Source: Pyropia yezoensis (lineage: Eukaryota; Rhodophyta; Bangiophyceae; Bangiales; Bangiaceae). From it: a stretch of DNA of 64,000 nucleotides. The notes beneath the pieces were generated by a model that saw only the letters and a list, made by a program, of their open reading frames with translations, ran no database searches and was not told where the DNA came from. The DNA lies in the NCBI GenBank assembly GCA_009829735.1, contig CM020619.1, positions 33,954,283-34,018,282 on the forward strand, in the 5' to 3' direction. Below, piece by piece: positions 23,564-64,000 of this stretch (its first letter is position 1; each line of letters starts with the position of its first letter). The position numbers and the translations under genes were made by a program.

Positions 23564-23642
23564 TGCATTGTAGGGCGCCTCGTAGAGGCGTCTCACGTAG
23601 TAGTCTGTTTCTTTTACCGATTTCCCTGAGGGAGATAGTTTG
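23564..23642. other. E1 convergence zone with hairpins
   Basis: The 79 bases between facing stops contain GCGCCTC-GTA-GAGGCGT and TTTCCCTGAGGGAGA. A further CCCCCTTGGGGG palindrome lies just inside the pol end. Same arrangement as in families A and C, with different sequence. Confidence 0.5.
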
Positions 23643-29370: not shown

Positions 29371-29467
29371 CACCACAACCACATTCCCTTAAGGAAGCCA
29401 GAGCACAGCCACAGAAAGAGTACGAAGAAGGGATAGACCCCTTTGGCCAGAAGGAACCTAGTCCCCT

Positions 29468-29484
29468 CCCCCGCTGATCCACCA
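29468..29484 (-). promoter_or_regulatory. E1 primer-binding site
   Basis: The minus strand reads TGGTGGATCAGCGGGGG two bases inside the 5' LTR. It is a variant of the shared TGGTGGAGCAGCAGGGG site. Confidence 0.7.
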
Positions 29485-29486
29485 AA

Positions 29487-30177
29487 TGTAGTGGTTTTAC
29501 GTACCTTAGGCGCCTAGCACCCAGAACACACAGAGAAACGACCCACCAAGAATGCGGGGAGAACGGAGAGATACAGAACCGCCGACCGCCTGGCTGGTTC
29601 ACGCGGGGATCCGCGACCAGGACGACAGTGTTCAAGCACACGCAAGTCTGTTTTTTTTCGAAGGGGGAAGCAACGCGCACCCCCACGCACACTATTACCC
29701 TCTCTCACCCGCACCCAGCAACCCTCCACACCGGGCCACGTGCGGGCCAATCAGAACCCTCCAACATGTCCGGAGGGCCCCCTCCCCCACGGATCATCCC
29801 TGCCAGCGGGGCAGGAATCTCCAGGATACGGGGGAGAAGAGCCGCGCCGGACATCAGTGCCAACACTCGAGATCTCCCCAATCTCACAATCACGCAAAAT
29901 ACACAATCAAAATCCAAACCCCAAATGCATCCCGTCCCGGATTATTGGCCAAAGGCCAATTCCGGTCGGGGAAAAATCCCATACACTGGGAATCCCAAAA
30001 TGGGCCCTAGAATCAATGACGACCCGGTCCCGCCTCCATAGGAGTGGACCAATCGGAAGCCAGTAAAATCCCGGGGGGCCAAGTCGGCCCCGTCCTCCTC
30101 ATTTGGAAGGTGGACGCAGGGGTACCACGCGATCTCTACGAGGTCCCCCCACGTGGAGGGCCCATAGGGTCCCTACG
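29487..30177 (-). repeat. E1 5' LTR
   Basis: This 691-bp LTR differs from 20440-21130 at about four positions by eye. Its outermost base is G on the plus strand where the partner has A, so one terminal TG/CA pair is altered. The adjacent duplication CTTCA (30178-30182) leads directly back into the D1 gag frame. Confidence 0.93.
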
Positions 30178-30182
30178 CTTCA

Positions 30183-34700: not shown

Positions 34701-36203
34701 ATGTCAAACTTTTTCATTGCCGTGATGAAGGTGCTCGGAGTGGAGACGGTACGCACCACCGCGTACCATCCTCAGACCAACGGTCAAGTCGAGCGGTACA
34801 ATCGTACCATTGCGACGCAACTACGTCACTACGTGACCGAGGACGCCAAGCGCTGGAACGAGCTGCTGCCCGTCCTCACGATGGCCTACAACAGCCAACC
34901 ACACCGGTCCACTGGACTAGCACCCTTCGAACTCGTCATCCCACGACGCATCCCACACTTATCGGTCCGTAACCTGCCACCCGGCACGTCGGTAGCCCAA
35001 CAAGGAACCCTCAACGACGGCTCGCCGCTCGCGAGGAAGCGCGAGTTCATGGCCCGACTGCGGTTGCAGATCCCGGCCGTCGTCAAGGCCCTCGTCAAAA
35101 CTCAGCAACGTTACAAGCGCAACTTCGACGCCCACATTGGGGAACGCAATCGCAAGATTAAGATCGGCGACTGTGTCTATACGACAAACCACCAACGAGC
35201 CAACAAACTGCAGAGCAAGGCCGTAGGGCCATTCATCGTCGTCGACGCTGACGAGTCTACGTTCGTCATCGACGTCGATGGCATCGAGAAGCGCATCAAC
35301 AGCGACCACGCCACGGCGGCACCGAGCCCGGACGACTGTGACGAGTCCACTCCACATCCACTTCTCGATGGGTTTGACAAACCACGGCCGGAGCCAACCA
35401 TCCACGACGAATACGTCATCGACAAGCTCATGCCCCATCGACGGTCCGGGGATTCTTACGAATTCAAAGTCCGATGGTATGATTATACCCCGAAGGATGA
35501 CACCTGGGAACCGGTTGAAAACTTGCCACGTAACTTGGTGATAAGACACCTGCGTTCCAAAAAGGTAGAAATACCAGGATACACGTGGCGAAAAACCACA
35601 GAGACATCGGCTCGAGTAACTCTCGCAACAAGTGTTGCGGACATCAAGACTGTGACTCCTAAGTCATGGGACCCCACCATCATGGCGGTCTACGTCGACC
35701 CATGGGGGGTGATAGAGGCTATTGTCCAATGGGACAACGCAGACCGCTCCATTATGGAGAGCATCCCTGTCTACTTCATGAAGGCAACATTGCCATCGGC
35801 AAGTCGTAACTTTACCTTCCCCATATGGGGCCAACACAGGGAGCTACCGGAGCTCACCCGGCGGTACGGTCCCTTGGTATACCACGCAGGTACAGGCGTC
35901 ACCACCACTGAGCAACCTCACTCAAAAGGCACACGCCTGAGAATACCCCTAGCACACACCCGCGACCAAGTGGTCACAGACCTGCAAGTTACTTCAACGG
36001 ACACACTCTTGGTCACTCCCCGCTGGGAACACGCCACCTGGTTTACAAAGGCCAAACGGCTTTGCTGCGAGTACATACTCTTGAATCCGACATCACACGA
36101 CAACTCGGTGTCAACACCATGGGCAAAGACTGCCTTGCACTTTCAATACAAACGCACAAGAAACAAGCACGCCAGTCGGCAAGGCAAGACAAAGCTAGAC
36201 TGA
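31726..36203 (+). pseudogene. pol: D1 pol with long extension past the chromodomain
   Basis: Domains in order are retropepsin ILDTGAGVNFI (31884-31916), reverse transcriptase with FCVDYRRLN (about 32890) and YLDDVIIF (about 33190-33215), RNase H (33630-33990), integrase finger with CTTCAQN (about 34411), and catalytic core with LIDILGPS, LSDQGP and NGQVERY. A chromodomain follows, with FKVRWYDYTPKDDTWEPVENLP near 35464-35527. About 215 further residues follow it to the TGA at 36201-36203, an unusual tail. Two stops break the frame: TGA 31941-31943 and TAG 34695-34697, both readable as C-to-T changes (CGA, CAG). Otherwise open for 4.4 kb. Confidence 0.9.
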
Positions 36204-36249: not shown

Positions 36250-36358
36250 TCAAGTACCACGACGGTAACGACCACGCACGTCCTCGTCGTATGACGGACT
36301 GTGCGAACGCACGTGGCGAGCCGGCGCCGGAGTAGCCGGCTCCTCCTCGTCGTCCGAC
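36250..36358 (-). pseudogene. D1 antisense gene, C-terminal end separated by C2
   Basis: On the minus strand a short Asp/Glu- then Arg-rich tail runs from the C2 insertion point to the TGA at 36252-36250. Removing C2 and one CCGAC copy joins it in frame to the part at 47102-48866, so it is the original C-terminus. The 5-bp target duplication is 36354-36358 here. Confidence 0.75.
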
Positions 36359-36721
36359 TGTAGCAATATGGTTGACCGTATTGTGACCCTAATGTTAGGG
36401 GGGCTACTTCTAATCCTTGTCTTTCAATTTGATAGTCCGTACTGGTCACGGTATCTACAAGTTACGTATGACCAGAGGGACTTGCATCTTGGGGTGGAGG
36501 GTAGTTAGTAGTGTCTCCGAGGGTTTATAACGAGGGGGCCGGCGGCGAATCCACCGCCGGCCGAGGCAGAACAACAAACCCCTCCCATTTGGGCTCCCAT
36601 CTTGGTCCCGTAGCTTGTGCTCCAAGCACAGCAACCTTGGCCTCCCGGTGACGTTGGTGCCGATCCCCCTTGGTGAGTGTTCCCTGAGAGTGGACGTGCG
36701 ACGGATCCCTATTGTGCTACA
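36359..36721 (+). repeat. C2 5' LTR
   Basis: This 363-bp LTR starts TGTAGCAATATGG and ends TTGTGCTACA. It is followed directly by the primer-binding site. A solo relative lies at 12843-13204. Confidence 0.94.
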
Positions 36722-36722
36722 T

Positions 36723-36739
36723 TGGTGGAGCAGCAGGGG
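36723..36739 (+). promoter_or_regulatory. C2 primer-binding site
   Basis: TGGTGGAGCAGCAGGGG lies one base inside the LTR and is identical to the B1 site, although the LTRs are unrelated. Confidence 0.78.
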
Positions 36740-36946
36740 ACGGGTTTCCGTCACCCTTGTGGTGACGCCGTCTTCGGCCCTGGCACACGGATAGGGATCC
36801 GGTCCTTTTCTTGTACTCGTGGTGTTGCGACCTGATCGATTGTGTTGAGTTTTTACCTTTGACTGTGATCTACTGTTACTCTCCCCAATCTACCCCCTCG
36901 CTCTCTTATTCGTGGTGATTGTTACGTCGGTTGACTGATTGTGACT

Positions 36947-39130
36947 ATGTCTACCCAAGAGACGGGGAACGTTCAAGATGACGGATCGGCGTCGACGCCG
37001 ACCCCGGAGGTGACTACGGGAACCGGGATCGGGAACCCGATCGACAACATTGAGACGCCCATGCTTTCCGGTGCCGGATCGACGTTTGGCACGGCTCGGA
37101 CGGCAGGAGGCGGGGGTCCGCCTCAACTGTTATCGACCGACCTCACTCCGCCGCCTCCTTCACCAGGGGATTCCCTGATGGCATCATTGGCCCGCATCGA
37201 GGCCCGGTTTTCCGGACTCGACGCCCGTCAAGATCGGACGGAGGACGCAATGGCAGTGTTGATGTCAACACGCCACACGACGGGACCCCGACGTGTTCCT
37301 CCCACACCGGTACGGTTCGAACCGGCCGGACTACTTTCGGAGTCCACCAGGGTCAACCCCGGTGTTGCTACTCCTGGACAACCCCCGGACACAATGGGGT
37401 ATGGATCCGACTCGTCGGCAGAGTTGGAACGGAGCCACACGGAGCGATACGCTCGGAGCACCCGAAGCGGACTCCGCGGACACGACCCGGCGGATACTTA
37501 CGCCGGTGGAGAGTCGGTTATTGGCGGAGGGGGTACCCTCTCACAGTACCCCCACGACGAAGGAGGCCAGGCAACTCGGGTTCCCGAAGTGCCGACGCCT
37601 GAAGTACCATCTTCAGTGGTGGAAGCTATGACCGCGCAGGTCACTGCGAGCCTACTGAAGCGGATGGAGTCCGATGATTTTGCTCATCAACTGGCTAAGC
37701 GACTGGATATCCAGGACGCTGACACGGAGATCGTGAACGAGGTCTTCCGGTCAGTACTGACTCCCGAACGTTATCGTTTGGAGGACCGATCTACCACCGT
37801 ATCGGAATCGATGCGTAATACGTCGCACCGAGCGATTCGCTCTATGCAGACCCTTATGAAGGGAGTCCCTATGTTCGGGGGCCCCAACGGACGTCCGTTG
37901 GCAGTCATCGGCTTCTGGACTAGCTTCAAGGCAGCCGCGGACAAGGCGCTCGTCAACGAGGGGCTGGCCCTGGACATCCTCCCGTTCTTTGTTGATGAAC
38001 GGGTGCGAGGCATTCGTCGCCAGGCATCCCCGATGCCGGGAATGAGGGTCGCAGTCACCCCCATGGATTACCGTGGGATTCACAAGGAGCTGCTGAGCAG
38101 TTACCTCAGTGAGGACAAGTGCGAGGACCACTACCGGGCCCTGCACACTGCCACCGCCCAGAGCTGGGAGGATGAGGAGCTGTTTGGACGCCGGATCCAA
38201 GAGCTCGACTACGAGCTGGGGAAGCTCCTCGGTGAAGGGGAACTACGGGCCATCCTGTTCGCAGGAGTACCCAACTACGTGCGGATATCCGCACGGGGAG
38301 CCAATACGGCCCGGACGAACTTCAGTCGACTGATGCATATGTGCAAGTCCCTAGGGGACGCCTACCGGGTTCTACACCCGGAGTGTGCCTTGGCCCCGAA
38401 GCCCAAAGGTGAGGGAGGCAAGCCCAGTCTTACCCCGGTACCGAGGCAAGAGAAGGTGGAACGTAAGGCCGCACCAGTACTGGTGGCGACCGAACATACC
38501 CCTACGGGCGAGGATGAACCTCTAGTTGACCAACAGGGCCACCTGTTGCTACCGGCGACGCCGGTAATTGATGAGCACGGTACGGTAGCGTACATTGCTC
38601 CGGCGGTGACCCAGTTCCGGGTCAACGAGGGAGCGGGACGGCGCGTCCCGTATGTGCGGACTACGGGGTATGCCCCGGTTACGGGTAACCCCAACCAGCC
38701 CCTGCCTACATGGGCAGTACGTACGGAGGCACCTCCGCAGATTGCGGGCCGACCCAACCGGTTGGGGGAGTCCATGTTCCGGTTGACCCAAGGACCCAAG
38801 GCCTACCAGGGAGCAGGCACTCGGGCGCCCGAGGGAGGCAACCGCAGCTACGGGGCTACCCCGATGCGAACTCAAGGAGGGACCGGCACGTCCGGATGTA
38901 TGTTGTGTGGGGATCCCCAGCACTGGGTGTCTTCCTGCCCACTCATCCCCGAGGAGTCTCGGCTGGCAGTGGTGCAACGCAAGACATCCACCGGGGAGTA
39001 TCCCGCCAGAGCACCCGCACCCGCACCGGGTAGGCAGCCAGCTCCAGGTGGAGTACTGGCCATCGAGGAGGCACCTCCGCAGCCGGATGTCCCGGCGGAC
39101 AGCGCCCTACCAAGGGCGGGAAACGAGTAA
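36947..39130 (+). CDS. gag: C2 gag polyprotein
   Basis: This intact frame has 727 codons from ATG 36947; an upstream in-frame GTG is not preferred. The first 240 residues are Gly/Thr/Pro-rich and probably disordered. A helical gag domain spans about residues 245-480, then a Pro-rich linker, and a CCHC knuckle CMLCGDPQHWVSSC near 38897-38938. The Pro/Ala-rich end reads GCG-GGA-AAC-GAG-TAA, a slippery GGGAAAC one codon before the stop. Gag would assemble the particle and bind RNA. Confidence 0.9.
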   Translation: MSTQETGNVQDDGSASTPTPEVTTGTGIGNPIDNIETPMLSGAGSTFGTARTAGGGGPPQLLSTDLTPPPPSPGDSLMASLARIEARFSGLDARQDRTEDAMAVLMSTRHTTGPRRVPPTPVRFEPAGLLSESTRVNPGVATPGQPPDTMGYGSDSSAELERSHTERYARSTRSGLRGHDPADTYAGGESVIGGGGTLSQYPHDEGGQATRVPEVPTPEVPSSVVEAMTAQVTASLLKRMESDDFAHQLAKRLDIQDADTEIVNEVFRSVLTPERYRLEDRSTTVSESMRNTSHRAIRSMQTLMKGVPMFGGPNGRPLAVIGFWTSFKAAADKALVNEGLALDILPFFVDERVRGIRRQASPMPGMRVAVTPMDYRGIHKELLSSYLSEDKCEDHYRALHTATAQSWEDEELFGRRIQELDYELGKLLGEGELRAILFAGVPNYVRISARGANTARTNFSRLMHMCKSLGDAYRVLHPECALAPKPKGEGGKPSLTPVPRQEKVERKAAPVLVATEHTPTGEDEPLVDQQGHLLLPATPVIDEHGTVAYIAPAVTQFRVNEGAGRRVPYVRTTGYAPVTGNPNQPLPTWAVRTEAPPQIAGRPNRLGESMFRLTQGPKAYQGAGTRAPEGGNRSYGATPMRTQGGTGTSGCMLCGDPQHWVSSCPLIPEESRLAVVQRKTSTGEYPARAPAPAPGRQPAPGGVLAIEEAPPQPDVPADSALPRAGNE
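39118..39124 (+). promoter_or_regulatory. Predicted -1 frameshift site of C2 gag-pol
   Basis: G-GGA-AAC is in the gag reading phase, then GAG and the TAA stop. Pol is in the -1 frame, with its first ATG at 39139. Confidence 0.72.
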
Positions 39131-39138
39131 GAGGAAGG

Positions 39139-42100
39139 ATGACCGGGGGGCGCTGGGGTAACCCAAGCAAGCCACCCCGGAGTACCGCGGGGAAAGCCCC
39201 ACGGAGAGCGCGGTTGAGCCGACGCCGCATCAACCCCCGGGTACACCTTCCGGCCCCGACGACACGGCGTCAGGGGATTGATGACCAACCACCAAGGTTG
39301 GGAGGAGAGGACGGGAAGCCCCGTCACATGGAACCAGACAAGGGCCCTGTTCAGGATGCCCGAGCTACACCGGATATCGGTGTAGGCCACGTGCTGTTTA
39401 CCTTGGAGAACTTCAAGGTATCAGCCACACTGGGGGTTGACCCCCAATCGACACGATCGTACTACCCTGTACTGGATACAGGGGCTGGACCCAACCTTAT
39501 CCGGAAGGATACCCTCCCGGACAAGTGGCTTCCGCGAGTCAGAGTGACTCGGGGACCCACCATCAAGGACGCGAATGGTCGCCTCATTCGTACGACCGCA
39601 GCGATGTCGCTGCGGGTTACCATCGGGGAACTCACCACGGAAGTCGACTTCCTGGTGTGTGAGACCCTATCGGTGCCCTGCATACTGGGGTGCACCTTCA
39701 TCAACGTTCACGTGGATGCAATCCGGCCAGGCCGGAGGACCGTCGAGCTTCAAGAAGCCGACGGGACGAAGCGAGGACATACGGCTATCGTCAGGGACCT
39801 GACGCTACAAGGGAGCCACGTTGACGTGGATGAGGTGTACCCAAGTGTCGAGCCTAAGACACTTCGGTTGGCCAAGCGAACTCGCTTTGAGCCGTTGTCG
39901 GAGACAGTCCTCCCGGTGAACTGTGACCTCGCAGGCATCTGCGGAGTCAAGTCCAACTTGCGGACGTACAAGCGCCATGGGTTGACCATGGCCAACGGTC
40001 TCATAGACCTCCCATCAGGAGGGTCGTCCCTCCTAGTGATGGCGAACTATCGCCGTAAGGCAGTCACCCTCCCGAAGGGCACTATCCTCGGGATTGCCGA
40101 GCTCTAAGAAGGAGATATCCTTACCCCTGACAAGGAAGGTCAAGTGGACCCACTTGAGGTGCTGGCGGTCGCCGAGACCACCGAGCGACAGCAACCCGAT
40201 GACGGGAAGCCTAGTCGACCATCATTACCGGCGCATATTCCGCCGAAGGACCAAGAAGCATTGAAGGCACTGGCCGAGGCTGACCTCGACCACCTTGCCT
40301 CTTCCGTAGCCTAAGGGGTACGACGGATGTTAAAAAAGCATGACGTCGTTTGGACAGGCGGAGCCCTGGGTACCATTGGGGCAACCCAACATCGTATAGA
40401 CCTGGTACCAGGCGCACGCCCCGCCCGGTCACAACCGCACCGAGCGGGACCTATGCAACGAGAGATCGTTGATGGAGAAGTGAAGAGGATGAGTGAAGCG
40501 AAGGTGATACGACCTTCGATGTCGGAGTGGGGTGCCCCAGTCGTTATCGTACCGAAGAAGGATCAAACCCCTCGGTTTTGCATCGATTATCGACGCCTCA
40601 ACTTGGTTACCAAGAAGGACTCATACCCTTTACCAAACATGGATGAATGCATCGACTCCCTGGGGGAAGCTACGGTGTTTACCACCATCGACTGCAATGC
40701 CGGATACTGGCAGATCCCGGTGGCGGACGAGGATATCCCCAAGACGGCATTCTTCTGTCACAGTGGAGTGTACGAGTTCCCAAGGATGCCTTTCGGATTC
40801 TCCAACGCCCCCGCTACATTCCAGCGGGCTATCGACATTATACTGTCGGGGGTGAAGTGGCGTAGTTGCCTAGTGTACCTCGATGACGTCATCGTCTTCT
40901 CGCGGAACATGGATGACCATGTGCAACATGTTGACGAGGTACTCACCCTCTTGAGGAACGACGGGGTAACCCTGCGTCTGAAGAAGTGCGCCTTCTTCCA
41001 ACAGACGGTCGAGTATCTGGGCCACCAGATATCCCCTGGTAAACTAGGGGCACTCGAAGCCAATACCCGGGCACTCCGGGATGCCCGGTTCTCTAACACC
41101 CAGACACAGCTCAAGAGCTTCCTGGGAATGTGCAAGGTATACCGACGGTTCGTCAAGGACTTCGCTCGGATAGCTAAACCGTTAACGGTTCGTACGAGCA
41201 GTACCCTGCCCAAGGTACTCCAACCCCCTTCGCCTAGCGAAGAGGAGGCATTCGAGTCGCTGAAGCGAGCCCTACTATCCCCACCCGTCCTTGCGTTACC
41301 GCACCGACGGGGTACCTTCGTCATCGATGTCGATGCGTGCGACACCCAAGTGGGATGCACCCTGCTACAGGGAGAGACGTTGATCGGTACCGATAACGTT
41401 CTCCCGGACCTACGTCCGGTAGGATACTTCAGCCGGACACTCAACCCGGCTGAGCGTAACTATAGTGCCACCGAGCGTGAATGCCTCGGAGTTATATGGG
41501 CAGTGCAACTGCTCCGTCCATACCTGGAGGGCTCCAGGTTCATCGTGAGGTCCGACCACGAACCCCTACGATGGCTCCTCAACCTTGGTGACAAGGATTC
41601 CGATAGCCATGGGAGGCTAGCCCGATGGAGGCTAAAAATGGCCGAGCACGACTACCGTACCGTGTATAAGGCTGGGTCAACCCACCATCTCGGAGACGCA
41701 TTGTCTCGACTCGACACCCCGAGCGGGGATACCCGCCCGGTGGACGAGGACATCCCGGTGGTACCGGTCTGCATGGTGGGTAACGCTACCCAAGGTATGG
41801 TTGACCATACCATGGCACACCGAGCCTGCCCACTAACCCTCGCGGACTTCCGCGAGGCACAAGCCAATGACGACGACTGTAGACGTCATCGCGCTAACCT
41901 CCTGGCCGGTACGGCCGGCATCTTCTCCGAGAACGAAGACGGACTCATATACCGGCGGGCACCCGCCGATGGACGACATCAAGTCGTGGTTCCCGTGTCC
42001 TTACGGCAAGCCGTCATGGAACGAGAACACGAGAACCCCACAGCCGGACACCCGGGGGGTTCACGTATGTTCGCAGCAATGCGAAGGTTCTTCTACTGGC

Positions 42101-43305
42101 CAGCAATGGCCGTCGACGTGGTCGACCACGTAAGGGGATGCCACCCCTGTGCACGTAACCGCATGGGTCTACATAGGCGGGCGTCTGCCATGAAGCTATT
42201 CCCACCCGATGGGCCCAACGAGCAAGTCGCTATCGACATACTCGGGCCACTTCCGGTAACGGAAGACGGGAACAGGTACATCCTGGTCATGTCTGACCGC
42301 TTCGCTAAGCTGTCACGAGCGGCAGCCATCCCGAATGATACGGCATACACGATTATGAACGCAGTGGTTGACCACTGGATTAGTGCATACGGAGTCATGA
42401 AGCAACTACTCTCCGACAACGGAGCATACCTTACGTCAGCCTTCTGCACTAAGGTCTTGGGCATGTTCGGTATCGAACCACGTCGGGCATCCGACTACCA
42501 CCCGCAAACCAACGGGCAGGTGGAGCGGTTCAACCGCACCATCGTCAAGATGCTACAATGCTACGTGGCCGAGCACACAAACACTTGGGACAGGCTTCTG
42601 TCCGTACTCACCCTGGCATACAATGCCAGGCCACATCGGAGCACGAACATCGCTCCGCTGGAGTGGGTCATGCCACTAGGCGTCGGTAACCTGACGCTGC
42701 CACCAGGCAGGTGCACTCGGTATGATACACCGAAAGGCCGACCGGCCGAACGTATCCACCTAGCTTGGTTGGCCAAGCTATCGTGGATGATTCCTAAGCT
42801 CAAGGGTGCCCTTGACAGAACACAACTTCGTTACAAGAAGAACTTCGACGCCCGACTACGGGTGCGCAATGCTACCCTGATGACAGGTGACTGGGTCTAC
42901 ATCAGACACCAGAAGTTCCGGGGGAACAAGCTCATGCAACCGGTCAAGGGACCGTACCAGATTCTCCACAGAGATGACCACTCTGTTATCTTACACTCCG
43001 ATACGGAGATCCAACGCATCAGTGTGAATGATGTCACACCTGCTCCGAAACCGGAACAGCCTCAGCCGGTACCGGCTGAGTTGCTACATGAAGCTCTTAC
43101 AATCCACCGGTCAGATGACCCGGTGGGACCGGATGGGATTGCATACCAAGTAGAGAGCGTGGTCGGACACACCGACCCGGACCTACCAGGACCCTGGTAC
43201 GTCAAGGTTATGTGGGTCGGATACGACCCACCCACCTGGGATCAGGCGGCAAATATACCCGGCCAACTACTCATGCCTTACATGAGGCGACGACGCCTAC
43301 TGTGA
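39139..43305 (+). pseudogene. pol: C2 pol, intact except two stops in the PR-RT linker
   Basis: Retropepsin (PVLDTGAGPNLI near 39460-39500) runs to TAA 40105-40107. The same frame resumes and meets TAA 40312-40314, then stays open for 992 codons from 40327. That part encodes reverse transcriptase (FCIDYRRLN near 40576, YLDDVIVF near 40877-40900), RNase H (FVIDVDACDTQVG), integrase (HPGG finger, CHPCARN, AIDILGPLP, LSDNGAY, NGQVERF) and a chromodomain with VKVMWVGYDPPTWDQA near 43204-43250. The two stops lie between domains, which would give separate proteins unless read through. The downstream part is fully open, the best preserved pol in the window. Confidence 0.92.
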
Positions 43306-43846
43306 CAACCCAACCGACACCGACTTCGGCTGTTGGGGGGTGAGGCTTATACCTACTAAGTAGGGTGTCACATGGTAACGGCAGACTTAGGTTTCTAAGT
43401 CAATTCAGACTTAGGTTTCTAAGTCGAACCAAGCTTAGGTAACTAAGTAGAGTCAAGCTTAGGTAACTAAGCAAAACCCGAACCTTAATAAGTTAACTTA
43501 AACGTAAAGGCTAACTCCGATAATATCGGAGTAACTAGGGGGCCTACACGGGAGGAGGACCTCCCCAAGCCAAGACACAAATTGAGGGAGGATGACCTTC
43601 CCAAGCATGAACCAACCGGAAGAAGTTGGACGGGAGGCAAGGCACCACTGAGCCGGAAGGGGTACTCCCCAGGGCAGCAAACAGAGGCAAGCAATGCCCC
43701 CGTAGGGGATGAGTTTATACTCACTACGACCCGGCTACCATAAGGGTCACCGGGGCCCTCCCCCTCACAAACAGTAGCACTCCTCAGTGGGTAGACCCAC
43801 TGCCCGAGGGAGGCCACTCACGCGTAAGCGCGTATACCTCCGTGCT
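43306..43846. other. C2 convergence zone with a series of hairpins
   Basis: Between the facing stops are four near-identical hairpins with the core CTTAG-GTTT/GTAA-CTAAG at 43384-43401, 43408-43425, 43434-43447 and 43457-43472. There is also CCTACTAAGTAGG near 43351 and a perfect palindrome ACTCCGAT-AAT-ATCGGAGT at 43514-43532. A 541-base spacer with this density of stems is likely structural, perhaps ending or processing both converging RNAs. No gene is seen. Confidence 0.65.
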
Positions 43847-46153
43847 TCACCGGTCGGCAATCTCACGACGGTCAATCACCCGAGTTACCTCGGTGCATAG
43901 CTGAACGAGGGTGCTGCGGCCAGCCTCCACGTTCTCCAGAGCTCTCTGGAGGCGGTCAAGCACGCCACCGAAGGAACGCGCTGACCCAACCAGCGCAGCA
44001 CCTGGGGGGATATCCCCCCAGCTAACAGAGAGACCCTCCCGCATTGCGCGGGCAACAAGGGCGTCAACGCCCTCATACCAGAGAAGGGGACTCCCGTCAT
44101 GTAGGACAGGGGCGGGAGGTGACACTGACGCAGCCAGAGGAGCCACAGGAGCCGACACGGCCACCATTGGAGCCGGTGGCGCCTGATATGAGGCCCGGTA
44201 GGACCCCACCCAAGGGGCTCCACCGTAACCCCGTCGGGGCTCCGCCCGACGACGGGACATCTCACGCTCCCCACCCGCAGAGCCCCACTCTCGGGGACGA
44301 CGGCCAACCGCCGCCGGTATCGGGTAACCGAACCACGAGGCAAGGACCTGAAGAGGGTCATGGATAACCATGGGAATACCCAGGTCAGCAACAGCCTCGG
44401 TGGACGCCCACCCATGGCAACTGGGCTCACCCGGCTGACTACGCCGGATACGCAACGAGTGACGAGGCAAGGGGGAAGCCCCAGCCTGCGGGTCCCGGTA
44501 CGGGGGAAGGGCCAACACCCGAGCCCAGTTCACGGCATCGTGAAGAGCCAGCAGGGCCTCGAACTCCCGGGCCAACCCGGTCTTGGCGGCTATCAGGTCC
44601 ACGCCCAACTGCGCGATGTGCCGACGGACACCCGTCGGAAGATGAAACAGGCGCCCCTGCCGGCGGACGGACAGCAAGAAGGAGGAAGCCTGCCCAAGGG
44701 TAACCTCAAGGGTGAAGGTACCCTGCAACGGGTGGACCGGCCGTGAGGCCAACACACTCCCGAAGTATCGGAGACAGGAGCCGGTGTCAAACCGGAAAGA
44801 AGGGGCGGGTTCCCACCCCTCCTGCCACAGAGGAGGGCGCACGGGAGTGTATACCGGCGCACGACCGTTGCCGGTCTGCAACGCACACGTTATATCCGTG
44901 CGAAAGGCATCCGCCATGACACCATGGTCACGTCGCCAGCTCGACGCCGACTTCAAACCCGCCATAGGCGGGTAGGGAGCCGTCAACGACAGATACGGGG
45001 ATACCCCCGGGTAGTAATCAAAGTCGGGATACCGACCGGTACTGCCCACCGTCTCCCCAAACGCAACCGGCTCCGCCGCCGCCGCAATCCCCCGAGCACT
45101 AGCCGGGTAGTCAATCTCCCGCGGCAACGCGGGGGCAATCAGGTCGCATACCCCGAAGGCGGGGTCGAGGTAGACCTCACCCCGTCCCACCCGGGTGCGC
45201 CAGAGCTGCGCATGCCGGTCGTCCGGCTGACTCAGCATCCAATGGTGTTCCACTCGCACCGCGTTCGGCTGGTTGACCAGCCGCACCAACTCCCGCTCCC
45301 AACTCGAGTCCACCTTGACGCGCCGGGAGGACTCTCCACGGGGATGGGGCAGGTGGAAGTCCACCCGCATCCGCCCATCGGACTCCATTGACTCTGGCAC
45401 AGTCAGGCTGCGAACCCGAGCCACCAAGTCGGACATCGACATGGCGGGTTGACCCGCCGCCACGGTGACGCCGCCACCCAACGGGGCAACCCGGGCAGGA
45501 CCAGGAAGAATAGGGGGCGCCGGGGGAAGACCCACCAGCAGATGGACCGGTGCCGGAGGTGCACGGGGCCGAGGAGGAAGAAGAAGGGCGGGCGCCCGCC
45601 CGGAGTAACTACCGGAGTCCACTGCCATCGGTGTAGACCCACCTTGACCACCAGACGCCCGCGGCACCGCGGGCAGAGCAACGCCGCCACCCGAGGCCGA
45701 CGGGAACACCTCGGGGGCAGCAGGGGTAGACCCGCTACCCGCCGCAGCGGACACACCACCCGGGCGGGCACCCGCGCCGTCTTGACCCGCCGTCCCGGTC
45801 GGGGTGCCACCATAACCGCCCGACACGCCGGCAACGCCGTCTTGAGGTTGAGCCGCGCCGGCACCGGCGACAGGAGCCATTTGGGCCGCCGGAGGAGTAG
45901 GGGTAGACGCAGCAGCTACCCGCGGTTGCCCGCCACCCGACGGAGCCGTCGTGCCGCTGCACACGGACGACAAACCGCCCGGAGCATCGTCCGGAGCCAC
46001 GCGAACGGTCACCCGGTCGCCCTCGTCTTCGGACGAGCTCACCAAGAAGCACTCGGCGGCAGTGGCAGAGATGGGAACGTCGTCCACCATCACCTCCTCC
46101 TCCTCCTCAAGCAGGAGGTCGTCCTCGCCCCCGGGTACCTGGGGGTCCGACAT
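43847..46153 (-). CDS. C2 antisense gene (aORF), intact
   Basis: This is an intact frame of 768 codons on the strand opposite to gag-pol; the ATG at 46153 gives MSDPQVPGGEDDLLLEEEEE. The frame extends further upstream, but this ATG precedes the acidic start. The N-terminal third is Gly/Ala/Pro/Ser-rich. The core has PLWQEGWEP (about 44800-44830), FGSVLAS, then RQGRLFHLPTGVRR (about 44610-44655) and FEALLALHDAVNW, matching RRGMLWHLP and LLEEMLRLHKFIEW of family A. The C-terminus is helical, ending VIDRREIADR. No transmembrane or catalytic motif is seen. It probably comes from an antisense transcript starting near the 3' LTR. Confidence 0.8.
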   Translation of the reverse strand: MSDPQVPGGEDDLLLEEEEEVMVDDVPISATAAECFLVSSSEDEGDRVTVRVAPDDAPGGLSSVCSGTTAPSGGGQPRVAAASTPTPPAAQMAPVAGAGAAQPQDGVAGVSGGYGGTPTGTAGQDGAGARPGGVSAAAGSGSTPAAPEVFPSASGGGVALPAVPRASGGQGGSTPMAVDSGSYSGRAPALLLPPRPRAPPAPVHLLVGLPPAPPILPGPARVAPLGGGVTVAAGQPAMSMSDLVARVRSLTVPESMESDGRMRVDFHLPHPRGESSRRVKVDSSWERELVRLVNQPNAVRVEHHWMLSQPDDRHAQLWRTRVGRGEVYLDPAFGVCDLIAPALPREIDYPASARGIAAAAEPVAFGETVGSTGRYPDFDYYPGVSPYLSLTAPYPPMAGLKSASSWRRDHGVMADAFRTDITCALQTGNGRAPVYTPVRPPLWQEGWEPAPSFRFDTGSCLRYFGSVLASRPVHPLQGTFTLEVTLGQASSFLLSVRRQGRLFHLPTGVRRHIAQLGVDLIAAKTGLAREFEALLALHDAVNWARVLALPPYRDPQAGASPLPRHSLRIRRSQPGEPSCHGWASTEAVADLGIPMVIHDPLQVLASWFGYPIPAAVGRRPREWGSAGGEREMSRRRAEPRRGYGGAPWVGSYRASYQAPPAPMVAVSAPVAPLAASVSPPAPVLHDGSPLLWYEGVDALVARAMREGLSVSWGDIPPGAALVGSARSFGGVLDRLQRALENVEAGRSTLVQLCTEVTRVIDRREIADR

Positions 46154-46738
46154 GATGACCGGGGTAGCAGGGGCGCTCCGTGCAGAAAAGCCGAGGCCGG
46201 CTCGACCCGGTACAGAGGACGCTCGCACGGACGAGCCAGGGAAGCGCGGGCACCCGCGCTTATAACCACACAGTTCAGCACGAGCGATACGGCAGCGCGG
46301 GACGACCCGCGCCAGCCGGGCTACGAGGGCGCTCCACCCAGGCACCTGGACCGGAGCCACGCCCCCGTGTGGAGGGGGCGTACCAGGAGGGTCACTCCCA
46401 ACCGCCCCCACGCAACGCGGGCAACCCCGCCACCCACTCAATCGTCTCACGAGAGGGGCTCCCCTACCACCAGACACCTGGTGGCGGATCCACTTGCACA
46501 CCCCTCCGAAAGGGGGGTCGTGAACAGAAACCCGCATCGGGAAATTAACGGTCCGGAAAACGGATCGTGTGTGTACCACACAAAGGGGGGCACCCCCCTC
46601 AGGCAACCTCGAAAAGGGGTGTCTGTCGCGACGGGGCGCAAAGCCCCACCCGACTGGTAAACGGTCACGCGACCCACTTACATTCGGTAACCCGACTGCA
46701 ACTCGACCCGAGGACGGGCCGAATCTAAGGGGGGGATA
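46154..46738 (-). other. C2 antisense leader and polypurine tract
   Basis: These 585 bases between the antisense-gene ATG and the 3' LTR contain no separate convincing gene. The frame upstream of the ATG stays open for 150 codons with Arg/Gly/Pro composition. At its right end, AAGGGGGGGATA (46727-46738) is the plus-strand polypurine tract next to the LTR. Confidence 0.5.
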
Positions 46739-47101
46739 TGTAGCAATATGGTTGACCGTACTGTGACCCTAATGTTAGGGGGGCTACTTCTAATCCTTGG
46801 CTTTCAATTTGAGAGTCCGTACTGGTCACGGTATCTATAAGTTACGTATGACCAGAGGGACTTGCATCTTGGGGTGAAGGGTAGTTAGTAGTGTCTCCGG
46901 GGGTTTACAACGAGGGGGCCGGCGGCGAATCCACCGCCGGCCAAGGCAGAACAACAAACCCCTCCCATTTGGGCTCCCATCTTGGTCCCGTGGCTTGTGC
47001 TCCAAGGACAGCAACCATGGCCTCCCGGTGACGTTGCTGCCGATCCCCCTTGGTGAGTGTTCCCTGAGAGTGGACGTGCGACGGATTCCTATTGTGCTAC
47101 A
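46739..47101 (+). repeat. C2 3' LTR
   Basis: This 363-bp copy of 36359-36721 has about a dozen substitutions. It is followed by CCGAC, the target duplication, and then directly by the interrupted D1 antisense gene. Confidence 0.94.
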
Positions 47102-48866
47102 CCGACACGGGCCGCCGGCGCCGACCAAGAATGGCACTGACGTCGACGCAACGAGGACTCTCACCCCGCGCCTCCACCACGCGAGCGTGACGCAGCTCAG
47201 CGAGCACGCTGTCTCGAATCCGAGAGGGGTCCGCCATACGGGACATGGCCAGGAGAAGCTCCTCCACCGCCTGAGACTCGGTCATACCACCAACCCGACG
47301 GATAACGTCCTCCATCCCGACGGTCTGGCGCGACCACGCAACTGCCAAGGAACCGGCCGTCGTACCGCGAGGCACACTACGGCCAGCCAAGGCATCAACG
47401 CGCTCCGCGCCCAACAGGGCAATCGCTCTCACGCGAGCCCAGTCGGACGGCCAGATCGGCTCATCGCCACCGCGGCATGTCGACGGCTCAGCAGCACGGT
47501 CACGTGACCCACCAACCACCGGCGCCGAAGGCGAACGAGTGCGATCACGCACTCGACGACCCGCATCACGGCCTCCACGGTCGACCGACCGGCCCACACC
47601 GGGTGACTCCGCCGAAGTGGCATCGTACTTCCAGTCGAACAAGCCGCACGGCTGGCGAAGAGCAAAGCCATACTTGGCGGACGGGTCAAGCTTGACATAC
47701 ACCTCAAGAGCGGCCTTCGTGTGGTAGTCACGACGACGAACGTCCACGACCACGGTGGTCCAAGGAAAGACGGAGTGCGCCTCCCGCATACGCTGGGACG
47801 TCAACAGACGCTTGTCACCGCCGGGGCCGTCAGCCAGGTGGCTTACGCTCAAGCCGTCCAACCACCCGACCACTTGGTCACTCAACCGGCAAAACAGTCC
47901 GTCGTGGAACAACCAGTGTACCCAAGCGGCAAGCAGGAAGCAGAAGAACTCGTCGAAAACGATGCCCCACGCCGCGTTATCCGCCTCAGTCAGCCGAGTG
48001 GCAACGTAAGACAGCGCCACCGGTGTCTCCATGTATGGACCATACTCGGTCCACCAGGACGGGCGACACGGAAGCCAGCGCTTCAAGTCGAAGAACGGTC
48101 GCGCACGGACCAGACTCGAGGCCCAGGCAGGGGCCAGCAAGCCCCGACGCTCAATCGACGCGAGGTCGTTCGACCGACGGAAACGAATGGACGTCGTCGG
48201 CACCCGGAAGGGCTGCGGGAGGTCGCTCAACGACGGACCAAAGCCGAGCTCAGGCGGAGGGTTGCCGGGGTACGCCTTGTCGACCAGCATGGTCAAGTAC
48301 CCCTCCATGCCAGGATCCTCCGCGATCGGGACGTCCAGCCGATCGGCCAAGTCGCGTCCAAGGAACACCGCACACGTCCATAAGCAGCGCAGCCGCCCAA
48401 AGTTATTGGCAGCGACCACGAAGGTTTCGGTGCTCCCAACCCGGAACCGCAGTGCCCAGGCGTGAAGGCGCCGGTGATACACGTGCAGAGCACCGGTGGA
48501 CGGGTACCGCAACAACTCGTTGCTCAACGACAAGACCTCGTACGCCTGCCGCTCCGGGCCTTGTCGGCCAAAGTCGGCATCCCCGTGCGCATCCGAGACG
48601 GACTCGCCTGCGTGAAACGCCCCGCCAACGGACACGTCCCGGAACTTAGGCAACGCTGCCCACCGCGCGTCAGGGATGCGCTGCAGCGCCAACAAGCGGT
48701 TGGAACGCGCCGCCTCCAACAACGGCGCATCCGCCACGAAGCCGACACCATCGACCATGTAGGTCGCCTGTGGGCTACGGTAAAACCCGCGCACCGGCCG
48801 CTCGGCCTCCGAGCAGTCCACCTCCGGGGTAAGCGCCGGCACGGCGGGAGCCATCTCGTCAGCCAT
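47102..48866 (-). pseudogene. D1 antisense gene (aORF), main part
   Basis: The frame is open from ATG 48866 (MADEMAPAVPALTPEVD) to the C2 insertion and continues at 36353-36250, about 622 codons in total without internal stops. The upstream open frame crosses a minisatellite and is probably leader. The core includes CRPSWWTEYGPYMETP near 48030-48070, LLAAWVHWLFHDGLFCRLSD, and a block resembling the LHKFIEW segment of family A. The C-terminal third is helical, then Arg-rich. The only lesion is the C2 insertion, whereas D1 gag and pol carry three stops, suggesting purifying selection or greater youth of the coding frame. Family unknown. Confidence 0.75.
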
Positions 48867-48920
48867 AATGGCACCACCTTCAGACTGGCTAAGCCTTTTG
48901 GGCATCGCACGGCGCCCTGG

Positions 48921-49096
48921 CCGCCTTGGCAACCTGCGCCGCCTTGGCCACCCGCGCCGCCTTGGCCGCCCTTGTCGCCTTGGCCGCCCTTGCCGCCTTG
49001 GCCACCCTTGTCGCCTTGGCCGCCCTCGTCGCCTTGGCCGCCCTTGTCGCCTTGGCCGCCTTTGTCGCCTTGGCCGCCCTTTTTGCCTCGGCCGCC
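48921..49096. repeat. 18-bp minisatellite in D1 antisense leader
   Basis: Nearly ten units of about 18 bp, consensus CGCCTTGGCCGCCCTTGT, lie just upstream of the D1 antisense ATG. All three minus-strand frames are open, encoding either G-G-Q-G-D-K collagen-like, R-P-R-R-Q-G or A-A-K-A-T-R histone-H1-like repeats. I take these as by-products of a GC-rich repeat. Confidence 0.85.
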
Positions 49097-49428: not shown

Positions 49429-49797
49429 AGGTAGGGGGAGACCCGACGCGACGAACACTACGGTCAACGGCTACAACGCCGACCCACACCCGGACGCCAC
49501 GCGCCAGAGGCCGGCCGGCCGCGGCACGAGTACCGGCTGGCGTAGCTCAGCCACGGGTCGGTCCACGCGAGCCCGCGTAACCGCCTCGGCCACACGGCCC
49601 CGCCGCACACCCGAGAGGGTACCACACCGCGCGCGCGGCGGACCGACGCTTCAACAACAACACCGACCGGTGCTGGCGCGACCCCCGGCAAGATTGCAGG
49701 CGGCCGCGCCACGACCCCGCCCAACTGGGCGCGCGCGGCCCTTACGTTGCACCCAGCCGGACCTCGCCGGAACGGCTCGAAGCTGGCAACGGGGGTA

Positions 49798-50204
49798 TGT
49801 AGCATATCCGCCCACCGTACCGATTTCCGGTATTTACGGGCAAGTAGCCCCCTTGACTGGTGGTCTCAGCCTTGTTGGTCTGGGTCCGCTTGTGGCTCGC
49901 CCTTTGGGGGACTACTTCTGTTTTGCATTGTTTATCTGTCCTTGCTTTGGAGGGATCTTTTTTATTGTTTGCTATGCTCGTAGCGATCGGCCGTCCGGCC
50001 TTCGCTCGGTCGCTCGACCGGCATATTGTTTCGCCCGGTGTAGGCGACGTGGGGGCTTGCCGCTGCCGTTTGGCCGGCTTGCTCCCCATCAAACGTCCTG
50101 GAGCTAAAGGTCTGTCTTCTTTGCCATTACGGTAATAGCTCCCTCTTTGCCTTCCGGGCGCCGGTCGGTCCCATATCCTTTTATTGGGTAACACATATTC
50201 CACA
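49798..50204 (+). repeat. D1 3' LTR
   Basis: This 407-bp partner of 19618-20024 is preceded by the short purine tract CAACGGGGGTA and followed by the ATGAA duplication (50205-50209). It marks the right end of the whole middle stack. Confidence 0.93.
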
Positions 50205-55321: not shown

Positions 55322-56313
55322 TCTCGTCGACGCCGTCACGCAGCGCTCCCGCACTCTACGCGAGCTGCCATGGGAGTAGGCACATCGCGGGACATGTCGG
55401 CGGCCGTGGCGTGCCCTCCTACGTACAACGCGCTGGAGAACACGCAGGTGGTCTGCGCGCCAGCGTGTCTGGCCGAGGTCATCCGAACGACGAGAGCCTT
55501 GTGCGATGCAGCGGTAGCACATGTACTCCGCAGCGGCGCTCGTCCGTCATCGTCTACATCACCGGGGTGTGAGGCGCTGCTTGGCGCCCGCTATGGCCTC
55601 ATTGACGCAATTTCGACGTTTAATGCATTTGCGGAGCGGCACAACGTGACGCACTCCCAAGCTGTGAGCGAAGCAGTTACCTTGCGGCTTGCGGCGCTTA
55701 ACAAATTCATTCTACAGGCACTGGCGCCGTGGGAGGAACGCCTGGCAGCAGTCGCGGACCTGGCCACCGCCGCAAGTTCTAGCGGTGGTAGATCTCTGCC
55801 ATCAATGAGTGTGTGTGTCTCGTCGACGCCGTCACGCAGCGCTCCCGCACTCTACGCGAGCTGCCATGGGAGTAGGCACATTGCGGGACGTGTCGGCGGC
55901 CGTGGCGCGCCCTCCTACGTACAACGCCCTGGAGAACGCGCGGGTGGTCTGCGCGCCAGCGTATCTGGCCGAGGTCATTCGAACGACGAGAGCCTTGTGC
56001 GATGCAAGGGTAGCACATGTACTCCGCAGCGGCACTCGTCCGTCATCGTCTACACCACCGGGGTGTGAGGCGCTGCTTGGCGCCCGCTATGGCCTCATTG
56101 ACGCAATTTCGACGTTTAATGCATATGCGGAGCTGCACAACGTGACGCACTCCCAAACTGTGAGCGAAGCAGTTACCTTGCGGCTTGCGGCGCTTAACAA
56201 ATTCATTCTACAGGCACTGGCTATGTGGGAGGAACGCCTGGCAGCAGTCGCGGACCTGGCCACCGCCGCAAGTTCTAGCGGTAGTAGAGCACTGCCTTCA
56301 ATGAGTGTGCGCC
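55322..56313 (+). repeat. 496-bp tandem duplication
   Basis: The unit TCTCGTCGACGCCGTCACG... at 55322-55817 is directly repeated at 55818-56313 with a few percent substitutions. 496 is not a multiple of three, so the two copies are read in different frames. Each copy retains the same open frame (see the two entries for these frames). Confidence 0.88.
55371..55816 (+). CDS. Hypothetical protein, duplicate copy 1
   Basis: The frame from ATG 55371 encodes MGVGTSRDMSAAV, LAEVIRTTRALCDAAVAHVL, a Ser-rich loop, LLGARYGLIDAISTFNAFAE, and a long helix EAVTLRLAALNKFILQALAP. It then passes into the second repeat unit in a different frame. The composition is that of an all-helical protein. The frame also extends upstream to 54599. 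Function unknown. Confidence 0.35.
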
Positions 56314-60771: not shown

Positions 60772-62715
60772 ATGGCGACCCCGGGAGTAGAGACAGACTC
60801 TCTTGACGAGCGCATGGAGGACACCTCCTACGGTGCAGCACCCGTCGGGACCTCCGGCGGGGGCTCCGCGATCGCTCCGGGGGATGGGACTCCCGCGTCA
60901 CCCGGCTTTGGGTTGACGGCGGGGTCTCTCCCGGAGGCGGGACAAGTTGTCCCGCGTGAGGCCTTGGGGCGGTGGTTTTACCCCGCTTGGCCTCTTTATG
61001 AGGAGGGGTTGACTGTTCTTCGCTGTGGCCGACTTGGCGCAGCGATGGGCCGGGTATGGGACCGCCTACGGGAGAAGTATCCCCGTAGGGTCGGGTTCCC
61101 GGCCGGCTTCAGGACGGACCAGTTTGCCTTCCTGGACGACGAGGAGGTTGAAGACGTCCAACGTGCCAAGGCCATGGTGGACCGCGGGGGAACTATCCCG
61201 GGTCCCGGCGACTTGCCGACCTTTACTTGGGACGCGGCGGCAACTCGCCCCCCGTACCTTCACGAGGCCGATCCGCACACTCATCACTTTGATGTGCGGA
61301 TGGAGAAGGACTTCCGGCGAGGTCCCTACTTGGTGACCTCGGCTGAACTTGAGTTCCCTCAGCAGTCTGCTGCCGGTAGAGAGCAGTACTATCCGAAGAA
61401 GCCCGAGTGGTGGCCTCAAGTTGAGGTCCCCTACGGGTTCCCGGCGTTGTTGCCCCGGTTGCTTGACCACTTCGGCTCCGTCACGTTGACGGCTGCCCCT
61501 GATCACCTGGTGTGGGCCATGTTGGCCACCCAGTGGCTCCTCGAGGTCATGTCGACCTGGGTGTCTTGTGTTCAGCGGCGCGGGATGCTCTGGCATCTCC
61601 CCCTCCGGCTCATCCAGGGTTTGGAACAGCTCACCCCTCAGCTAGTTGCTGAGGGGTGCTCATCAGGACAACTCACTCTACTTGAGGAGATGCTCCGGCT
61701 CCATAAGTTTATCGAGTGGGAGAGCATTGAGCACAAGTTGCGCCGCCCCACTCGTGGGCCCAAGGACGATGGCGCACTTCGCCAGTTCGTGTGGGTCGCT
61801 CGTGAACTTCACGACGGCCGTGTGGTCCTACGAGAGGGGTTGGGCATCGGGGACTACCCGTATGCCCCGGGGGTGGATCGCCACACTGCGCCACCCCCGG
61901 ACGAGCCCATAGTTATGGCCGTGCCGTCCTATGATGACCACATGACTCAACCCACTGCGGGAGCCCCAAGTCGGGGTCGCAGTTACACCCGGGTACCGCC
62001 ACCTCGGCGGGCCCCTCCGCTTCCTCCGGTTCCTGTCCAACCTCACGGGATTATCCCGATCAGCGTGGCCGTGGAGTCTTCCACCCCGGTGTCCCCCAAC
62101 TTGGGGGCCACCCTCCTGACGGTACACCCCAAGTTGGTGTTGCCGCCCACGCCTCTAACCTCAGAGATGATGATCACCACGTTGGTGCGCACCATTTCCT
62201 GGTTGGCCGCGTCGACCGCAACCCTACAGAGTTCCGAGACTCCTCAACTTGAGGAGTGCGTTCGTACTGCAGTAGCGACCGCGAGTTGCGAGTCGGTGGC
62301 GGAGTTTATGACAGCCGAGTTGGCTCGTATTGGGGCTATTATGCCCCAGCCAGCCCCACTTGGGCGTGGCAAACGTCGCGCGAGCCGGGCATACTCGCCT
62401 CCTCGCCGTCGTCGCCGACACTCTCGGCGCTATCCCTCCGTGTCGGAAGACGAGTTGTCTTACTCCGTCTCGGAGTCCTCTACCCCGTCGGAGACGGAGT
62501 CTGTCCAGCGTCTGCGTCGCAAACTTGCGCGCAAGACCAGGCAGAAGAGTGGCCACGGTCGGCGCCACTTGCGCGACCGTGAGGGGCGCGACGGTTCCGA
62601 CTTGGAGCCGCCGCCCCCTCCAACGAGTGGAGACCGTTATCGGCGTGGGTCTCGCCGCTCGCCTCCACGTGAGGGCGAGGGCCGTGGAGTGGGAGAGTCT
62701 AGCATGCGTGCCTAG
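60772..62715 (+). CDS. A3 antisense gene (aORF), intact
   Basis: This is the complete reference copy, 647 codons, from ATG 60772 (MATPGVETDSLDERMED) to TAG 62713-62715. The open frame extends upstream, but this ATG is conserved in A2 and resembles the E1 start. Residues 1-90 are Gly/Ser/Pro-rich. The core spans about 90-370: PEWWPQVEVP near residue 212, FGSVTLTAAP, RRGMLWHLP near 269, LLEEMLRLHKFIEW near 303, VVLREGLGIGDYPYAPG near 352. Then come a Pro-rich linker, a helical segment (residues 460-525), an Arg/Ser-rich tail resembling SR domains, and a charged end. Pol of this element has a stop and a frameshift, but the aORF has none. Function unknown; the basic tail suggests nucleic-acid binding or nuclear localisation, an inference. 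Confidence 0.82.
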   Translation: MATPGVETDSLDERMEDTSYGAAPVGTSGGGSAIAPGDGTPASPGFGLTAGSLPEAGQVVPREALGRWFYPAWPLYEEGLTVLRCGRLGAAMGRVWDRLREKYPRRVGFPAGFRTDQFAFLDDEEVEDVQRAKAMVDRGGTIPGPGDLPTFTWDAAATRPPYLHEADPHTHHFDVRMEKDFRRGPYLVTSAELEFPQQSAAGREQYYPKKPEWWPQVEVPYGFPALLPRLLDHFGSVTLTAAPDHLVWAMLATQWLLEVMSTWVSCVQRRGMLWHLPLRLIQGLEQLTPQLVAEGCSSGQLTLLEEMLRLHKFIEWESIEHKLRRPTRGPKDDGALRQFVWVARELHDGRVVLREGLGIGDYPYAPGVDRHTAPPPDEPIVMAVPSYDDHMTQPTAGAPSRGRSYTRVPPPRRAPPLPPVPVQPHGIIPISVAVESSTPVSPNLGATLLTVHPKLVLPPTPLTSEMMITTLVRTISWLAASTATLQSSETPQLEECVRTAVATASCESVAEFMTAELARIGAIMPQPAPLGRGKRRASRAYSPPRRRRRHSRRYPSVSEDELSYSVSESSTPSETESVQRLRRKLARKTRQKSGHGRRHLRDREGRDGSDLEPPPPPTSGDRYRRGSRRSPPREGEGRGVGESSMRA

Positions 62716-62826: not shown

Positions 62827-64000
62827 TCACGTTGAGGGAGGGCTGTTAGGGTCTATCTCATTCCGGGCACAGTACGCCCGGACCTTCTCAGCAGGAAGGT
62901 CCTCCACATACTCCCATGTATCGTCCTTGGCTTTGTAGCCAAACCAACGCACCCTCAACATGAGGCGGTCAGTGTCTTCATCCCATCCGTGGTCGATGAA
63001 CTTATCGAACACGTACTCCTGCGGGCCCTGTTTGGCCGCAGGCAGTGAGGGGAGGCGTCACGACTCCAACGCACGTGCCCAAGCTGGGTCGCCTGCAGGC
63101 GGTGGTGCAACTTTGACCACGTCCTGTCCGTTCACTGTGCGGACCCCATCGGCACTTTCGATGGTGAAGCGCCGCCCATCAGTACGAAGGACCTGGTACG
63201 GTCCCTTCGTCTGGAATACCAGCTTACCCCCAGTTGGGGTGTGCGAGTGTACCGGCACCCAGTCACCCTGCTCGGGGACATGTTTAGCATTGCGCACCTT
63301 TTTGTGAAAGGTACGCTTGTAGCGCTTTTGTGCTTTGTCCATCTTAGCCCTGACTCTAGGTATGAGGCGTTCAAGCCTAGCAGCGAACTCCGCCTTACTC
63401 TCAGTAGGAGTAGGCGTACTGCCACCATCCTCCCTAGTTGGGAGCGACCGCCGCACGGCAATAGACCGCACACGACGGGGGGTCACAAAAGCGAGGGGTA
63501 CTTCCCCTGTAGATGAGTGAACCTGCGAATTGTAGGCAGTAGTAAGGATAGAAATGTATTGTCCCACGTCTTCACGTGCTCACTCACATAGTGGCGCAGC
63601 TGCCTAACAATAGTTTTGTTGAAGCGCTCCACCTGCCCATTAGTTTGTGGGTGGTAGGGAGTGGCATAGTTTGCCTTAACCCCCAACATATCCAGCACTC
63701 CCTGAAACAGTACAGACGCAAATTGCGGTCCATTGTCCGATAGTGTACTATCTGGGATGCCATACGCGGCAACCCAGTGATCTAGGAAGGCTGACACGAC
63801 CGACATGGCCGTGATCTCTGCCAGGGGGATCGCTCGCGTAAGTTTCGTGAAGCGGTCACAGATGACCAGGAGGTACTGGTTGCCTTCCTCGGTCACTGGC
63901 AGTGGCCCAAGGATGTCCATCGCCAACGCGGCGAAGGGCTCCTTGGCCGGGAACAATAGCATAGCCGTACTAGGCCGCCGTTCCATCAGACGGTTCTGTG
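62827..64000 (-). pseudogene. pol: A3 pol, integrase and chromodomain (continues right)
   Basis: The minus strand encodes the integrase core with AMDILGPLPV, LSDNGPQF and NGQVERF. The basic C-terminal region follows, then a chromodomain FGYKAKDDTWEYVEDLP (about 62895-62945), ending at TGA 62827. One base is missing near 63560 compared with A1 and A2, shifting the frame. TGA at 63058-63060 replaces a Trp codon. At the two codons where A1 and A2 share TAG stops, A3 has sense codons. Confidence 0.88.

Follow-up and report, generated by a model that had tools for sequence, protein, structure and literature searches.

A protein family encoded antisense to pol in Ty3/gypsy retrotransposons of the red alga Pyropia yezoensis

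The window, that is, the whole stretch of 64,000 nucleotides that was analysed, comes from the genome of Pyropia yezoensis, in which repeats make up 48% and LTR retrotransposons predominate, according to the accessible part of PMC7423979. It holds four families of Ty3/gypsy LTR retrotransposons, designated A, C, D and E, each with a long antisense gene between pol and the 3' LTR that is convergent with pol. The sequence-only reading had placed such a gene downstream of pol in all four families, and the frames were indeed found, with 647, 768, 602 and 597 codons, respectively. The A copies occupy about 4055-12348, about 11876-16662 and the stretch from 59965 to beyond the window end. The features are the following:

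4055-5717, plus strand: antisense gene of A copy 1 (tblastn), N-terminus lost to an insertion
9135-5868, minus strand: pol of A copy 1 (tblastn)
11780-9813, minus strand: gag of A copy 1 (tblastn)
13912-15857, minus strand: antisense gene of A copy 2, disrupted by frameshifts and stops
about 19617-50204, plus strand: element D, with E and C nested inside it
about 20439-30180, minus strand: element E (pol matches), nested in D
21773-23563, plus strand: antisense gene of E, 597 codons, interrupted in the window copy by a single in-frame stop at codon 103
27595-23643, minus strand: pol of E (pol matches)
30214-31143, plus strand: gag of D
32232-36203, plus strand: pol of D, with Pfam reverse transcriptase, RNase H, integrase zinc domain and chromodomain
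36250-36353, minus strand: C-terminal tail of the D antisense gene, severed by the C insertion; in one frame it matches the tails of L023 and L024, two copies of D
36359-47101, plus strand: complete element C (Pfam domains), inside the antisense gene of D
36947-39130, plus strand: gag of C
39139-40107, plus strand: protease of C
40327-43305, plus strand: pol of C
43847-46153, minus strand: antisense gene of C, 768 codons
about 47097-48905, minus strand: main part of the D antisense gene, 602 codons
59965-60437, minus strand: 3' LTR of A copy 3, from repeat matches to 11876-12348 and 16190-16662
60772-62715, plus strand: antisense gene of A copy 3, an intact open frame of 647 codons, with pol on the minus strand
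62854-63998, minus strand: integrase end of pol of A copy 3 (tblastn), convergent with the antisense gene; the element continues beyond the window end

The gene at 4055-5717 belongs to a third A copy, additional to the two that had been recognised from the sequence alone. The LTRs of C (36359-36721 and 46739-47101) are 96% identical, those of D (about 19617-20024 and 49797-50204) 97% and those of E (about 20439-21133 and 29486-30180) 99%, and each of these elements has a 5-bp target duplication, as read by eye. Several other E copies lack the stop at codon 103 and have an open frame. Reverse transcriptase, RNase H and the integrase zinc domain score above the Pfam cut-offs in pol of both C and D, and the integrase core falls just or well below its own. 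A chromodomain in the D integrase reaches 35.3 bits against a Pfam cut-off of 25.1, a value that E (19.1) and a C-like copy (16.4) do not attain. The distance from the ATG of the antisense gene to the 3' LTR is about 0.33 kb in A, 0.58 kb in C, 0.64 kb in E and 0.9 kb in D.

Three further structures were observed in the window. An insertion at 739-4046, which sits in the antisense gene of A copy 1, contains a gag-like gene (1553-3259, minus strand) flanked by two 652-bp arms that are 99% alike and mutually inverted; for an LTR element, whose ends are normally direct repeats, this inversion is unusual. Within the broken A copy 2, a stretch at 12830-13204 resembles the C LTR (90%) and is probably a solo LTR. 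At 55322-56309, a 496-bp unit is tandemly duplicated, with the two units 95% alike.

The antisense proteins had been proposed to form one divergent family, and direct comparison with A bears this out for each of the other three: BLASTP aligned A with E at 27% identity over 299 residues (E 7e-17), with C at 25% over 230 residues (E 4e-11) and with D at 22% over 178 residues (E 2e-8). With 200 local shuffles per protein pair as control, the z values were 10.1 for A-C, 12.1 for A-D and 22.6 for A-E, none of the 200 shuffles reaching the real score. Including the related proteins D', F and G, the A-C, A-D, A-D', A-E, A-F and A-G pairs all beat every shuffle, with z from 8.4 to 27.0. The C-D, D-E and C-E pairs taken alone were unconvincing (z of 0.6, 2.0 and 3.0 on 200 shuffles each). 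Profile comparison matched environmental E-like proteins to A with a probability of 99.2 and to G with 99.0. The environmental E-like set with A and G gave 9.3 against C, and 94.8 was obtained once A, E, F and G were in the profile, so that C joins only a profile containing A. The expected profile-profile similarity is therefore present among A, the E-like proteins and G, and for C through A, and fails for D, whose comparisons with the others returned 0.2 and 0.5 against 0.1 for a gag control. On these comparisons the antisense proteins of A, C, D and E are related beyond what composition explains and belong to one family, of which D is the weak member, tied in through its match to A, the position of the gene and the element that carries it. 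Kinship with gag or pol was rejected, as neither the profile comparison nor the shuffle test, run with the A protein against both, gave a signal. The motifs listed earlier stood in part: inspection by eye showed a hydrophobic stretch and P-x-W-W or P-L-W, together with E-x-P, in A, C, D and E, and only A and C come close to R-x-G-x-L-[WF]-x-L-P.

To place these genes in the genome, we searched 107,475,971 bases in 11 contigs; only the best candidates were scored, and the copy counts are lower bounds. The A gene lacks an internal stop in 64 of 68 scored copies, including the window copy. A search with E returned at least 90 matches at 30-100% identity, families F and G among them, and several of those at 30-36% have stop-free frames of hundreds of codons. 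G gave at least 22 near-full matches at 86% identity or more and, among the matches listed, another set 25-26% identical to it with frames of up to 900 codons. The protein family is thus wider than the four element families, since F and G of the same genome carry it. G (L057-L064) is a short version of 342 codons, with pol absent within 1.5 kb in all eight loci, and possibly represents non-autonomous elements. Beyond this assembly, where about 8000 candidates were scored in each protein search, P0001 is 95% identical to A, and the fragments P0002 and P0003, the latter from EukProt, are 64% and 70% identical to it over about 30% of its length. The JGI and ENA sets supplied P0004, 76% identical to E, and P0005-P0010, at 31-39%. 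Short-pattern scans of IMG/VR and of prokaryotes yielded no relatives, leaving a viral or prokaryote origin without support.

Orientation was uniform across the loci. Of 64 loci, 53 have pol in the 1.5-kb flank, and in all 53, three of which are the window's own, the antisense gene runs opposite to pol. Conversely, 33 of 41 D-type pol ends carry the gene: in 32 it follows pol within 0.5 kb on the opposite strand (at a distance of 152-162 bp in 22 of these), and the remaining one is the window's own, split by C; for the other 8 pol ends there was no antisense gene among the matches listed. Trees of integrase and antisense protein for 13 chosen elements have an identical family-level order, their only differences lying near the open forks of F and L049; this agreement indicates that the antisense gene was inherited together with pol; the tree program flags long branches for C, A and D, so the deepest joins are unsure. 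Pairwise identities of the two proteins have a rank correlation of 0.88, a value that none of 5000 permutations attained. The antisense protein diverges faster than integrase, with identities of 20% against 43% between A and D and 26% against 49% between A and E.

The dS of the antisense gene exceeds that of integrase for D/D' and E/E' and is similar to it for E/L040. D and D' share an LTR stretch (window 49797-50204; L029 295-741) that is 92% identical despite an antisense-gene dS of about 1, and the upstream regions of E and E' are 81-89% identical; both may reflect exchange between subfamilies or constraint. The dS contrast and the D/D' stretch are suggestive of recombination of the gene between subfamilies, and no more than suggestive.

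Selection was estimated as dN/dS by the NG86 method on stop-free pieces, any below 750 nt being dropped; comparisons of E with F and G were saturated and left out. Among family-A copies the ratio lies well below 1, as anticipated: it is 0.13-0.21 in 7 of 7 copies, with a median of 0.14 and a range of 0.03-0.69 over all 28 pairs. The window A copies gave 0.25 and 0.27, the former for copy 1 against copy 3 over 406 codons. Between D and D' it is 0.20 in all four rows, and between E and its diverged subfamilies 0.14-0.15 (L043-L046), 0.23-0.27 (L040, L041), 0.37 (L042) and 0.41 (L048); integrase in such pairs gives 0.15-0.33. Within young subfamilies the values are higher, at 0.36-0.89 for C (13 rows), 0.60-0.87 for D (8 rows) and 0.60-0.84 for E (6 rows), and the medians are 0.59 for G with flat codon positions, 0.40 for F and 0.51 for D'; we read the higher values within young subfamilies as decay of dead copies. 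The claim of selection in four lineages accordingly holds among A copies and between most subfamilies (0.13-0.27); within young C, D and E, selection is weak or absent.

A six-frame reading of the same columns, in which the antisense frame was stop-free by choice of rows, gave dN/dS of 0.93-3.33 for the four out-of-register frames and 0.24-0.38 for the mirror frame on the pol strand, which contains 8-25 stops per sequence. Chance long frames in GC-rich DNA that mirror coding on the pol strand would fit the window GC of 55-67% and the low ratio of the mirror frame. The stops of that frame, set against an antisense frame open in nearly all scored A copies and alignable between families, reduce this explanation to a negligible probability. 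The antisense frame is genuinely coding, and purifying selection acts on it about as strongly as on integrase. Selection kept it intact while the elements diverged, and the gene therefore probably helps the elements to live in their host.

As had been suspected, the protein has no convincing counterpart: Pfam, NCBIfam, PHROG and PDB supplied no DNA-binding or other known domain. Weak Pfam matches to Phage_attach, BRI3BP, DUF6214, RNA_pol_L and Phage_pb10_N (best E 0.035) were attributed to chance. An identity with TRP28 was rejected, because PF04195 had no match at E up to 1 in 11 members each of A1 and A2. The tails of A, D and D' are Arg-rich or Arg/Ser-rich, several tails contain Arg-Gly and Arg-Ser dipeptides, and a simple scan located no basic cluster in C, E, E', F and G. 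The central hydrophobic stretch has a 19-residue Kyte-Doolittle mean of 1.2-1.9 in eight family proteins and 2.18 in the fragment P0002; it is within membrane-span range in D, G and several relatives and below the usual 1.6 in A, C, E and F. The upstream regions have no common TATA-like box and no cross-family match beyond chance, except for an A LTR inserted near L045. A tandem array with a 9- or 18-bp repeat (window 48913-49096) lies immediately 5' of the ATG of the D antisense gene; D is the only family with an array near the gene.

Antisense frames in this place have precedents, some of which had already been invoked. The accessible part of PMC7264820 describes an antisense ORF between pol and the 3' LTR (aORF-3R) in maize Grande (gene23), rice RIRE2 and PvRetro13, as well as in Boty of the fungus Botrytis, and reports that the Grande protein locates to the nucleus and is expressed from a promoter of its own. 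The likeness to the red-algal gene is one of layout: aORF-3R occupy the same place and orientation, occur in most copies and are conserved about as other element proteins, and here the gene lies on the opposite strand between pol and the 3' LTR, accompanies 33 of 41 D-type pol ends and has integrase-like dN/dS between subfamilies. The hosts differ, being land plants and a fungus in those cases and a red alga here. Retand elements with TRP28 (PF04195) likewise combine a long region between pol and the 3' LTR, antisense ORFs and a proposed nuclear regulatory role, as far as the accessible part of PMC11963269 goes; Retand is a non-chromovirus lineage, whereas here PF04195 is unmatched and the D chromodomain exceeds its cut-off. 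In the portions available, both papers propose plant antisense ORF proteins as nuclear regulators. In the literature searched, which covered subscription journals thinly, no such antisense gene is reported for a red alga. The layout is therefore known, and what is new is the protein family, the host branch and at least one carrier element with a chromodomain. HTLV-type retroviruses carry an antisense gene at the 3' end of the retroelement that has a regulatory role. It resembles the red-algal gene in 3' position and, on the reading put forward below, in regulatory role; such genes are named in the accessible part of PMC11963269. A functional analogy is offered by the VANC proteins of Arabidopsis VANDAL elements, which bind noncoding regions of the elements that encode them and strip silent marks (PMC10398659, in the part accessible) and serve as a model for a fast-diverging, element-encoded accessory protein. 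VANC proteins are presumably unrelated to the red-algal protein, VANDAL elements are DNA transposons and VANC targets are tandem repeats, whereas here the carriers are LTR elements with a single array near D; as there is no shared upstream motif and the array is found near the D gene only, no VANC-like target is seen.

We tentatively regard the gene as an accessory third gene of a red-algal Ty3/gypsy lineage that, by analogy, may have its own promoter and encode a nuclear, trans-acting regulator or anti-silencing factor. An antisense gene must be read from an antisense transcript, and expression would start from a promoter within the few hundred bases between the ATG and the 3' LTR, independently of genomic RNA. 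The protein would then enter the nucleus and act in trans on the chromatin or transcription of its own element, which is the least certain step, and the effect could be relief of host silencing or regulation of the LTR, as has been suggested for plant antisense ORF proteins and reported for VANC. Divergence faster than that of integrase, the Arg-rich tails in A, D and D', a separate antisense mRNA, and the examples of Grande and VANC make a regulator a possible, if far from secure, assignment. Against it stand the lack of a known domain, of a basic cluster in C, E, E', F and G and of a shared upstream motif, the borderline membrane stretch, the G loci without pol within 1.5 kb and the 8 of 41 pol ends without an antisense gene among the matches listed. 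Rather unlikely, on present evidence, is the more ambitious version in which the protein represents a new superfamily, independent in origin of the plant ORFs, that the ancestor of a deep red-algal, chromodomain-related Ty3/gypsy lineage already carried as an antisense third gene and that serves element-specific anti-silencing.

Similarly doubtful is an accessory factor of the virus-like particle or of reverse transcription, such as an RNA chaperone or an assembly or nuclear-import factor made from antisense mRNA. Integrase-like selection, co-inheritance with pol and the Arg-Gly and Arg-Ser dipeptides would suit such a factor; it has no gag or pol similarity, and antisense coding uncouples its expression from gag-pol. 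An antisense gene need not rely on the genomic RNA for its expression, and this fits a regulator better than a particle component. An Env-like or other membrane protein for cell-to-cell spread could account for the central hydrophobic stretch (1.2-1.9, and 2.18 in P0002), yet Env-like third ORFs lie on the gag-pol strand, and the red-algal gene is opposite to it in 53 of 53 loci; with A, C, E and F below 1.6 and with Arg-rich tails, this reading is improbable on orientation, the hydrophobicity being borderline and not decisive. Still less probable is that the antisense RNA is what matters, through double-stranded RNA control of the element, with the protein as a by-product. The transcript would be complementary to genomic RNA, and the accessible part of PMC7264820 raises the idea for plants; selection acts on amino acids, however, with dN/dS of 0.13-0.27 against 0.93-3.33 in the four out-of-register frames. 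This codon-level selection opposes the RNA reading; the RNA may still act alongside the protein.

Plants and a fungus were already known to harbour extra antisense genes in their LTR retrotransposons, without an established function; in the red alga, such a gene shows clear selection at the amino-acid level and was inherited with pol across deep divergence. Should such genes have been retained independently in distant hosts, a protein expressed in antisense probably answers a need common to LTR elements. With so many copies intact, the expression and location of the protein can be tested directly.

A separate observation concerns L065, where positions 1-1691 hold an SSU rRNA locus that scores just 772 bits to the eukaryotic model and, by eye, is missing its usual 3' end. 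It is unexpectedly divergent for a red alga and is perhaps a degenerate or foreign copy.
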